Shown here piece by piece: positions 11,851-64,000 of a stretch of DNA of 64,000 nucleotides (positions are counted from its first letter, which is position 1; the number at the start of each line of letters is the position of its first letter). A model generated the notes under the pieces. That model saw only the letters and a program-made list of their open reading frames with translations, was not told where the DNA came from and did no database searches. The position numbers and the translations under genes are program-made. Source of the DNA: Synechococcus sp. MEDNS5 (lineage in GTDB: Bacteria > Cyanobacteriota > Cyanobacteriia > PCC-6307 > Cyanobiaceae). The stretch is from positions 434,001 through 498,000 of the forward strand of contig NZ_CP047952.1 of assembly GCF_014279875.1 (NCBI RefSeq), read 5' to 3'.

Positions 11851-12756
11851 TCAGGTGCTGAATCGCCAGCCCGGAGGATCCGGAGGCGGATCTTCCGATG
11901 CCAGACAAAAAGTCGGTTGGCAATCATACCAGCCGCCTTTGCTGAAGATGGTGTCTTCGTAGCCTGCTCTGAGCAGGCACAGGCCCTGAGGTGGGGCCCC
12001 GTCTCTCACCTCTTCGCGCCGTCGTTCCCGCCAGCGGCGCTCGAACTGTTCCGGGGTCAGTCGATGTTCACCAACGGCGACCAGTTGCCCCATTAACAGG
12101 CGCACCATTCCATAGAGGAACCCGCTGGCCTGAATCTCCAGGTCAATCAGATCGCCACGCCGTTGAACGGAGACATCCTGAATGGTGGTTCGAGAGTGAG
12201 CTCTGCGGCTTCCAGCGCGCTGGAAAGCTGCAAAGTCATGACTGCCGAGCATTCCCTCCAAGGCCTCAGCCATTGCTTGGTCATCAAGACGCGCTTTGTA
12301 GCGATGCCAGCTCCAGGGTGCGAGAAAGAGATTGGGTCTGCGGCCGTTGTAGAGGGTGTAGCGATAGCGCCGGTAGGTGGCCGAGTAGCAGGCATGCCAC
12401 GAGAGAGGTCGTTCCACGGCCTCGCGGACCCTGATGCTGGCGGGTAGCCGGCCATTCAATGCTGGAGCCCAGCGACTGGCAGGAATCGGGCCGCTGCTGT
12501 CGAAATGCACCACCTGTCCGGCCGCGTGCACGCCGGCGTCAGTGCGGCCAGCGGCGACGGCATGGACTGGACGATGGGGGTCGAGATCTGCGATGGCCTG
12601 TTCAAGCACGCCCTGCACGCTTGTGCCCTGACGTTGCCGCTGCCAGCCACAAAAAAACGACCCCGCGTATTGGAGGCTGAGAGCAATCCGCTGAGGGGGA
12701 TCGGCTTCAGGTCCGGGTCGGGGGTCGTGAATCGTGCTCTGATCCGAAGGGTTCAG
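11851..12756 (-). CDS. truA: tRNA pseudouridine(38-40) synthase, apparently with a CTG start
   Basis: TruA converts U38-U40 of the tRNA anticodon arm to pseudouridine. The catalytic Asp is in [11 protein letters not shown], and the conserved N-terminal strand reads [16 protein letters not shown]. This strand lies upstream of the first usual start codon in the frame (GTG 12618), so that start is too late. The frame stays open to a TGA just before position 12760. Between them there is no ATG, GTG or TTG. A CTG at 12756 overlaps the rplQ stop as CTGA; an ATT at 12732 is another candidate. From CTG the protein is 301 residues. Confidence 0.85.
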
Positions 12757-42234: not shown

Positions 42235-43341
42235 TCAACCGTTTCTCAAATGATCAGCATTGAGAATCTGTGAGCGTTGCCGCCATTCGCCCTCAAAGGC
42301 GTTGAGATGGGTGGCACTCACAAGACACTGATGGCTGTCACCCACCGCTTCCAGCAAGGCCAGTTGTCGCTGCGGATCCAATTCCGCCAGCACATCGTCC
42401 AGCAGCAGGAGCGGTGGATGGCCGCAGAGCTCTCCCACCAGTTCCAGTTCCGCCAGTTTCAGCGCCAGAACAAGGGTGCGCTGTTGACCTGATGACCCGA
42501 AGCGACGGGCGATGGTGCCATTCAGCAGCATGTCGATCTCGTCCCGATGGGGGCCGACTCGGCAGCTGCCGAGCCGTTCCTCCTCACAGCGTTGGCGGTG
42601 CAGCTGCTGTTCGATCGCCAGTCGCCAGGGCTCTTCGGCCTCCTCCCCTTCCAAAACGCTCCCTGGGCTGTAGCGGAGCTCCAATTGTTCATGGCCCTGG
42701 CTCAAGCGTGACTGCCAGGCCGCTGCCAGGGGTTCGAGCCGCGACAGAGCCCGGCGTCGGCGCCGGTGAATTCGTGTGCAGACCAGAGCCATCTGAATGT
42801 CGAAGCTGTCCAGGAGCGCTTGGTGTTCGATGCTTGTTCCTCCGCCCCCTCGTCTCCAGAACTGGCTGCGCTGGCGCAGGAGGCGGTTGTACCGTCCGAT
42901 CAACTCGGCATAGATCGGCTCCAGTTGCAACACGACCCGATCGAGCCAGTGGCGTCTTAGGGCCGGTTCTCCCCGCACAAGATGAAGATCCAGGGCACTG
43001 AAGCCCACACAGCGCAGGGGCCCAATCAGATCCATCTGACGCTGCAGCACCTTGCCGTTGCGTCGTGCCTGACGGCCACCGCGGCGGCGGAGCTCCAGCT
43101 CAACTTCGATGTCGTCAACGCAGGAGGCCTTCAACAGAGCTCTTGAAGCGTTCCAGTGGATCAGATCCGCATCCTGACTGCTGCGGTGAGAGCGCAAACT
43201 CCCCAGGAGTTCCACTGATTCCAGCAGGTTGGATTTGCCGATGCCGTTGCTGCCGATCACCAGCAAACGCGGCGCTTCGATCTCCAGCTGCAGGTGGCAG
43301 TGGTTGCGGAACGCCTGCAGTTCAAGCCGGAGAAGCCGAAT
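42235..43341 (-). CDS. recF: DNA replication and repair protein RecF, with an unusual start
   Basis: RecF loads RecA at gapped DNA during repair. Walker A is GSNGIGKSN (about 30-38), the ABC-type signature is [18 protein letters not shown], and Walker B is [12 protein letters not shown]. The conserved RecF N-terminus ([12 protein letters not shown]) lies upstream of TTG 43266, the first usual start in frame. Between that and the upstream in-frame TAG there is no ATG or GTG. ATT 43341 gives a 368-residue protein with a canonical N-terminus; GTC or ACG-like starts are the alternatives. Confidence 0.85.
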
Positions 43342-43403
43342 CGGTCCGGGTGCGACGTGTCGCTAAGGTAACCAAATCGTGGTTGTTCTCCCAACTGCCG
43401 CGT

Positions 43404-61863: not shown

Positions 61864-62901
61864 TCAGGCGGGTAGTCCGAGCACCGGCGCCTCCTGTGGC
61901 CCAGTGGCTGGGATCACCTGGCCGATCACCCAGCTCTCAAAACCGCTGTCTTTGCAGAGGGTTCGAGTGCCAGCCACCTCCGACTCCGGAAGGATCAGGC
62001 AGTAACCGATCCCCAGGTTGAAGGTGTGCCAAAGGTCCCGTTCCTGAAGATCCCCTTGGGTTTTCAACCAATTGAAGAGCTCTGGGCGCGGCCAGCTGTT
62101 CTGATCAACACTGGCTCTCAATCCTTCCGGTAAAGCGCGGGGCAGGTTCTCAGGAATCCCGCCTCCTGTGATGTGAGCCATGGCGTGAATGGGAGTGCCT
62201 GCCGCCAGAAGAGTTCTGATGAGGGATCCATAGAGATGGGTGGGTTTCAGCAGTGCGTCAATCACGCCTGTTTGTTCCGGCCCGAAACGGGAGACGGCCC
62301 CTGCATCGCAGCGCTCCAGAATCTTGCGAACCAGGCTGAATCCGTTGCTGTGAACGCCGCTACTGGCAATTCCCAGGATGGAATCGCCGGCTTGTACACG
62401 GTGGCCATCAATCAGGTTGTCCTCCTCCACCACGGCAACACAAAAACCTGCAAGGTCATAACGGCCTTGTGGGTAGAAGCCAGGCATCTCCGCCGTTTCT
62501 CCCCCCAGCAGGGCACACCCGCTTTGGCGGCAACCATCGGCAATACCCTCCACGACCTCAGCCATGGCGTCCGGGCTCAGAGCCCCTGTGGCCATGTAGT
62601 CGAGAAAGAACAGTGGTTCGGCGCCGCTGGTGATCACGTCGTTGACACACATGGCAACGAGATCAAGTCCCACGTTGTGGTGGCTGTTGTGTTCCTGAGC
62701 GAGCTCCAGTTTGGTGCCGACTCCGTCTGTTCCGGATACGAGGAGTGGCTTGCGCAGGCCCTCAGGCAACCGAATCAGGCCTCCAAAGCCGCCGAGCCCA
62801 CCCACGACTTCGGGGCGATGGGTGGCCTCCACGCTGGTTCGGATCCGGTCCACAAAGGCCCTGCCGGCTTCCACGTCGACACCGGCGGATCGGTAGTCCA
62901 T
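61864..62901 (-). CDS. purM: phosphoribosylformylglycinamidine cyclo-ligase (AIR synthetase)
   Basis: PurM (345 residues) closes the imidazole ring in purine synthesis. It begins [20 protein letters not shown] and has [56 protein letters not shown] and [15 protein letters not shown]. The start ATG 62901 is preferred to TTG 62904. It is divergent from rlpA, with a 308-base gap between the two starts. Confidence 0.97.
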
Positions 62902-63209
62902 CAATTGGTTGGGAACTGATGCGATCCTCCCTCCTCGTGGGGCACGCCGGGGGCTTAGCCGGCTGTGCCGATCAAGGCATCGACCTGGCCTCGATCAGCT
63001 TTGCTTGTAAGGGCCATAGCCCTGGCTGATCTTTGTGGTCTGCTCATTGCGCTTCGGAAGCCTGTGACGGCGAGGGATAGCAGCGCTGTCGCGAAGGTCC
63101 TCTTCTCGGATTCCAAGACCGCGGTGGAGACCAGTGAAGGGTGGGTATTTATACGGTTGCTTCATCTAAAAGCGGCTGCTGTCACCGAGCAATTCAGCGT
63201 TTCCCCGAT
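62902..63209. other. 308-base divergent intergenic region, purM to rlpA
   Basis: No convincing coding frame or RNA gene is seen. The region must hold the promoters of purM (minus) and rlpA (plus). A possible -10 for rlpA lies in TATTTATACG at about 63146-63155, some 55-60 bases upstream of the rlpA start; I see no matching -35 with confidence. Confidence 0.4.
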
Positions 63210-63758
63210 ATGCAACGTCATTGGTTCCTTACAGCCCTCATCACGGGCATTGCCGCGTCAGGGGCTGCGCTGTATCCGGTGATTGCCAGAGACCTCGAGG
63301 GGTTCGACTTCGTCGACCCCCTCGACCTTGTTCTTCCTGCTGAAGAAGCCACTGCTGTGGAACCAACTCCAGCCAGCCTTGAGTTGGAGACCTCCCTCGC
63401 CGAGCCGGTTGCTCCTGAACCGGTCGCTCCTGCAGAACCGCCCAAGTCAGTGGGACCTGTCGTTGTCTCCACGCATTCCGGCGAGGCCAGCTGGTACGGG
63501 CCTGGGTTTTACGGAAATCGCACAGCCAGTGGAGAAGTCTTCCGCCCCGGCACCATGACGGCGGCTCATCGCTCACTTCCATTTGGAACCAAGGTGCGGG
63601 TGACCAATCTTTGGAACGGCCGCAAAGCTGTGGTGCGCATTAACGACCGCGGACCATTCGTCGGCCATCGCGTGATTGATTTGGGCCATGGTGCGGCCAG
63701 GCATCTCGGGCTCACGTCAAGCGGTGTGGCCCAGGTGAAGCTCGAGGTTCTGCGCTGA
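63210..63758 (+). CDS. rlpA: RlpA-family septal ring lytic transglycosylase-like protein
   Basis: A 182-residue exported protein. A signal peptide ([17 protein letters not shown]) is followed by an acidic Pro/Ala/Val-rich linker ([14 protein letters not shown]) and a C-terminal double-psi beta barrel from about residue 88: [35 protein letters not shown], and [15 protein letters not shown] with the active-site-type Asp. RlpA cleaves peptide-free glycan strands during septation; no SPOR domain is present. ATG 63210 is chosen over 63141. Its stop overlaps the apparent panC start. Confidence 0.9.
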
Positions 63759-64000
63759 GCCTTCAGATCCTCAGGACGGCTTCGGAGTTTCGCTCCTGGC
63801 GTTTGGCCTGCCAGGCCCCCATTGCCTTTGTTCCCACCATGGGGGGGCTTCACCAGGGGCATGCCCGTTTGATCGGCGCGGCGGTGAAGGACCAAGGCTC
63901 GATGGGCCCCGTCCTGGTCAGCACATTCATCAATCCATTGCAGTTCGGAGTGGATGAAGACTTCGATCGTTATCCACGCACCTTTGAGGCTGACTGCACG
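63755..64000 (+). CDS. panC: pantothenate synthetase (panC, possibly panC/cmk), 5' part, apparently with a CTG start
   Basis: The first 82 codons of a gene cut by the window edge. [14 protein letters not shown] and [16 protein letters not shown] (with the HxGH-type ATP motif) and [21 protein letters not shown] are diagnostic of pantothenate synthetase; cyanobacteria usually fuse it to cytidylate kinase. There is no ATG, GTG or TTG at or upstream of the conserved N-terminus in this frame. CTG 63755 overlaps the rlpA stop as CTGA and gives the expected N-terminus. Confidence 0.88.

Follow-up and report, generated by a model that had tools for sequence, protein, structure and literature searches.

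CTG as the probable start codon of panC-cmk in marine Synechococcus and part of Prochlorococcus

The rlpA-panC junction and the N-terminus of PanC

Where does translation of panC begin in a Synechococcus genome whose panC reading frame lacks ATG, GTG and TTG at the expected place? The question arises near the end of the window, i.e., the whole stretch of 64,000 nucleotides that was analysed (61% GC, from a genome of 2.44 Mb), where an rlpA-like gene is followed by panC, fused to cmk. The rlpA-like gene occupies 63210..63758 on the + strand (ATG start, 182 aa, TGA stop), and the stretch from 63189 matches DPBB_1 (PF03330) and TIGR00413 (rlpA). The product of the downstream gene was assigned by profile search to NF010004, bifunctional pantoate--beta-alanine ligase/(d)CMP kinase, with 715 bits against a cut-off of 524, identifying it as the fused form; its 5' part lies at 63755..64000 (+), and the gene, coding for 518 aa if read from CTG, extends to about G000:C1:499311. 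PanC-CMK, being both a vitamin B5 and a nucleotide enzyme, joins the supply of coenzyme A with that of pyrimidine nucleotides. The closest named relative in the scan, from which records of very near genomes are possibly omitted, was Synechococcus WH7803 (88% in PanC-CMK).

The original prediction placed the start of panC at CTG 63755..63757 (+), overlapping the rlpA stop TGA (63756..63758, +) as CTGA, and the sequence bears out its description of the site. The CTG lies in the panC frame, which opens after an upstream TGA (63677..63679, +), and no ATG, GTG or TTG occurs in frame from that stop to the next canonical codon, TTG 63803..63805 (+, codon 17). The CTG is the sole NTG near the conserved N-terminus. 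The protein read from it matches pantoate ligase profiles from residue 4-5 (entering PF02569 and TIGR00018 at position 2, and the panC-cmk profile NF010004 at position 3), and the alignment with the best solved PanC, 5ucr_A, begins at query residue 3, opposite a Met of 5ucr_A. The N-terminus read from CTG thus has normal length, in agreement with the claim that the usual PanC N-terminus follows directly. A sequencing error is a very unlikely source of the CTG, because independent genomes share it, e.g., Synechococcus WH7803 (L003, CT971583.1).

An initial screen for missing starts was dropped, as it was confounded by conserved DNA 5' of starts, and was replaced by a heuristic applied to 73 gene families in six genomes, in which a first ATG, GTG or TTG more than 12 residues past the conserved onset counted as lack of a nearby start. 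By this measure, panC alone lacked a nearby canonical start in 6/6 genomes; 66 families were clean in all genomes, five were affected in one to three, and one other, the gene at 42238-43362 (minus strand), in 5/6. In the latter, the conserved onset precedes the first canonical start by about 30 codons in these five genomes, reflecting either conservation of the DNA upstream or a further unusual start. No Rfam matches at gathering score were obtained across 6.5 kb around the rlpA-panC junction, no shared RNA structure was seen by eye in nine single folds at the junction, and no promoter-like sites were found in 62800-64000.

Conservation of the overlap and of a Shine-Dalgarno element

PanC loci of relatives came from four collections: genome contigs gave 80 loci, from which L003-L036 were retained; 400 genomes of the family, 367 of them matching, gave 30 loci; 60 additional stretches of these 400 genomes were included; and a genus sample of Prochlorococcus type yielded 12 loci, with matches in 25 of its 31 genomes. 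Duplicates and L037-L082, i.e., cmk-only matches and one distant PanC, were left out of the counts, and rlpA was scored as absent if tblastn gave no match in the DNA examined around panC. Among 122 distinct PanC loci, the rlpA TGA overlaps the panC frame in 62, rlpA is present without overlap in 32, and 28 have no rlpA match, the incomplete L027 possibly being one of the latter. After addition of 31 more genera or genomes, the full set, from which L027 was excluded, comprised 154 loci.

When the overlap was judged solely from where rlpA stops, it was present in 63 of 96 rlpA-bearing loci and absent from 33, mostly Cyanobium-type and filamentous. All 63 overlaps read CTGA, the last rlpA codon being CGC in 62 of them and CAC in one (L244); the alternation of CTGA with ATGA or GTGA that had been suggested for relatives does not occur. 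In the set of 122, rlpA of the 62 overlapping loci always ends in CGC and TGA, the two preceding codons being variable, and both the last codon and the stop vary in the 32 non-overlapping loci. None of the 63 overlapping loci has a canonical codon between the upstream stop and codon 4, and an in-frame stop is located 12 nt 5' of the CTG in 39/62.

The original prediction did not mention a conserved Shine-Dalgarno (SD) GAGG, which in the window is part of GAGGTT at 63744..63749 (+), within Glu-Val codons of rlpA and 5 nt 5' of the CTG. At positions -11 to -6, the 62 overlapping loci read GAGGTG (47 loci), GAGGTA, GAGGTT or GAGGTC (14) or GAGATT (one). The rlpA Glu codon at this place is GAG in 63/63 overlapping loci, without any change on the tree; among the 33 non-overlapping loci, Glu occupies the site in 23, and its codon is GAA in 21 of these. 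Since both 16S copies found in the genome end in ...GGATCACCTCCTAAC, GAGGTG could pair over six bases. As judged from such sequence patterns, SD assistance of panC initiation is well supported.

Substitution patterns were evaluated on a FastTree quick tree. Of 28 rlpA codons for nearly invariant residues, 26 show 5-26 third-base changes on the PanC tree, and the two without any change are the last codon, which contributes the C of CTG, and the GAG of the SD. The 64 rows of this test, including one non-overlapping locus (L270), were preselected by the letters CTGA, which made its zero at the C inevitable; both zeros persist if rows are selected solely for where rlpA ends. In a position-by-position test of 62 rows, likewise picked by the letters CTGA and excluding L149 with its one-codon deletion, the only frozen wobble sites within the last 12 rlpA codons were -9 and 0. 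Wobble changes follow the rlpA frame (mean 13.3) and, after the junction, the panC frame; in panC codons 3-16, third positions average 13.7 changes, as compared to 8.0 and 6.6 at the other positions. The CTG itself is constrained, being unchanged in the 63 overlapping loci and retained in seven loci that lack rlpA.

These seven (L153, L260, L262, L264, L292-L294) belong to a clade of 56 loci in the 154-locus tree (support 100) from which rlpA is missing and which contains the named Prochlorococcus loci. Each has an SD-like GAGG, GGAG or AAGG, and the first canonical codon occurs at codon 21 or later, or is absent; in L293, no further NTG and no ATN codon precedes the PTMG motif. In L260 the site reads CTGG, i.e., no TGA overlaps the CTG. 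Upstream of L153, L260, L262 and L264, rlpA is gone, and the DNA in its place reads as an apparent divergent purM start. SD-like 4-mers are present in 7/7 of the CTG loci, as compared to 6/51 of those rlpA-less loci that start canonically (Fisher p 6e-6, calculated from rows that are not independent). The seven loci represent a small number of lineages, possibly two, and the branches there are weakly supported (53). Retention of both SD and CTG in loci without rlpA suggests that the CTG is usable without coupling.

In the remaining 49 loci of the clade, GTG, TTG or ATG is found at the start place or close to it. Where a canonical start precedes the old CTG place by one codon (19 loci), this place is occupied by 14 different codons, and in L155 and L247 GTG lies directly 5' of a still intact CTG; these two are likely intermediate stages of start-codon replacement. 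Parsimony on the 154-locus tree, with L096 and L138 scored as CTG though they also have a canonical codon 5, requires four changes, and a single gain of CTG needs six losses. The most recent node uniting all CTG loci (support 96) comprises 119 of the 154 loci, none of which has a non-overlapping rlpA. The CUG start of panC appears to be old, occurring in marine Synechococcus and some Prochlorococcus.

Stop context and competing start sites

In six syntenic marine Synechococcus regions (window 1-64000 and L272-L291), the base before TGA is C at 233 of 338 such stops (69%), and of the 38 families in which all six genomes use TGA, 19 have C before it throughout, which amounts to a strong stop context. 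Conservation of the C was, given this base rate, rejected as proof of a start in its own right, and part of it may be due to stop context; the case rests instead on the SD switch, the missing other starts, the rlpA-less loci and a control within the same genomes. With C so common before TGA, CTGA at a gene end is ordinary, and the mere number of three such junctions in the window is no evidence. The truA and ldpA junctions, which the original prediction had invoked as parallels to panC, are not conserved and lend it no support. Seven of 28 rplQ-truA loci, the window's own included, cannot use CTGA, owing to TAA stops (two), in-frame stops just after (two) or shifted frames (three); L188, one of these seven, is from a draft genome. 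At ldpA, the frame fits in 18/24 loci and is another one in 6/24, again including the window's own, and in 10 of the 18 fitting loci a canonical codon occurs at +11 to +35, counted from the upstream stop.

In this genome, truA (12753-12756, minus strand) has no ATG, GTG or TTG near the conserved start, and its relatives (L185-L213) differ widely, with in-frame stops, shifted frames, or GTG or ATG further in; the truA start may be non-canonical in some lineages. At ldpA (26790), CTG occurs at -1 and at +11 from the upstream stop, and several relatives (L214-L238) have ATG or GTG at +11.

The base rate raises the possibility that CTG is indeed the start of panC, but has been kept by stop context and codon bias, which favour C before TGA, rather than by selection for a weak start. 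This explanation deserves serious consideration, even if we would not bet on it. It is favoured by rplQ, which keeps GTC before its stop in 27/28 loci, including those with a closed downstream frame. However, in 38 overlapping genomes (rows again picked by the letters CTGA), C precedes the own stop of panC-cmk in only 27, with eight changes on the tree, as compared to none before the rlpA stop, and two other invariant Arg codons of rlpA show 17 and 22 wobble changes. Moreover, the seven rlpA-less CTG loci have 37-43% GC, with 13-18% C at the third positions of their panC, and nevertheless retain the CTG, even as CTGG in L260. Because of the rlpA-less loci and the own-stop control, selection for a weak start seems favoured over a trap set by the stop context, albeit without proof.

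That panC starts at a downstream canonical codon, such as TTG 63803 here or GTG at codon 23 or 26 elsewhere, and that the CTG is merely the end of rlpA, is improbable. Canonical codons between codon 5 and PTMG are present in 47/62 overlapping loci, mostly at codon 23 or 26, beside or within FVPTMG, but 15/62 loci have none, the positions are not common to the loci, and codon 17 is TTG in 2/62. Codons 3-16 evolve as protein and match the PanC profiles and the solved PanC, and a downstream start would leave unexplained both the SD at -11 and its persistence without rlpA. Even less credible is another non-canonical start such as ATC 63767: an ATC is present at codon 5 in the window, but relatives have GTT, CTC, TTC, GTG and others at this place, L293 has no ATN to offer, and the SD spacing suits the CTG. 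A RlpA-PanC fusion arising from a -1 frameshift close to the stop of rlpA, for which the four-base overlap of the two frames would be suited, can practically be dismissed, since no slippery heptamer was found at the junction by eye, rlpA-less loci keep the CTG, and RlpA is an exported protein whereas PanC and Cmk are cytosolic enzymes.

Possible mode of initiation and comparison with known systems

CTG 63755 is thus very probably the start codon of panC. The observations as a whole are best explained, with a probability of roughly 0.86, by initiation of panC-cmk at CUG 63755, aided by the SD and by termination-reinitiation. The original prediction had proposed that translational coupling lets ribosomes that stop at the TGA restart on the CTG. 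The invariable CTGA overlap is consistent with this idea, and termination-reinitiation coupling of panC to rlpA is plausible where rlpA is present; however, in view of the seven rlpA-less loci and the CTGG of L260, coupling does not seem to be what makes the CTG usable. Ribosomes finishing rlpA would stay by the junction, held by the GAGG, which lies within the end of rlpA at normal spacing, and would restart with initiator fMet-tRNA on the CUG overlapping the TGA. After loss of rlpA in the Prochlorococcus ancestor, the same SD-CTG pair might have served as an ordinary start in some lineages, while others would have switched to GTG, TTG or ATG, with gradual loss of the SD and drift at the CTG codon.

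CUG initiates poorly in work on E. coli (PMC11497404). It might have been kept as a weak, SD-dependent start that holds the output of PanC-CMK low relative to RlpA or renders it responsive to initiation factor IF3, which is a weaker part of the proposal. We tentatively consider, with somewhat less than even confidence, that the CUG, from the ancestor shared by marine Synechococcus and Prochlorococcus onwards, has been maintained by selection as a control point of PanC-CMK that is deliberately weak, SD-dependent and perhaps IF3-sensitive, and that would have outlived the loss of the coupled upstream gene. We know of no link between PanC-CMK and IF3. The infC gene of E. coli has an AUU start and is subject to feedback by IF3; it resembles the proposed situation in that a weak start codon has a regulatory role in infC, but the codon is AUU there and CUG at panC.

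Gene callers restricted to ATG, GTG and TTG should shorten PanC in these genomes. A clade-wide CUG start with its own ribosome binding site, together with natural replacements by GTG, TTG and ATG, would provide a comparative system in which to study the retention of a weak start. CUG starts are described as very rare (PMC5622118, PMC9845219), and a report of a CTG start of panC was not among the matches listed for CTG/CUG starts or panC starts in a search whose coverage largely excludes subscription journals. Overlaps of the -4 type have been described as ATGA or GTGA, with termination-reinitiation (PMC10666635; the term CTG was not found in its main text). The panC junction shares this four-base geometry and likely the coupling, but differs from the overlaps described there in that CTGA is fixed and that the CTG survives loss of the upstream gene.

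Another likeness is to sigR of Streptomyces, as reported by Feeney et al. (2017, PMC5472188), where a GTC start behind AGGAGGTG is found in 32/34 species and is repressed by IF3. In both cases, a conserved non-canonical start codon follows a conserved strong ribosome binding site, and in sigR the weakness of the start is functional, via IF3 repression. In contrast to the GTC of sigR, which belongs to a sigma factor gene and was proved as start by mutation, the putative CUG start of panC belongs to an enzyme gene, overlaps rlpA, and is deduced from sequence alone.
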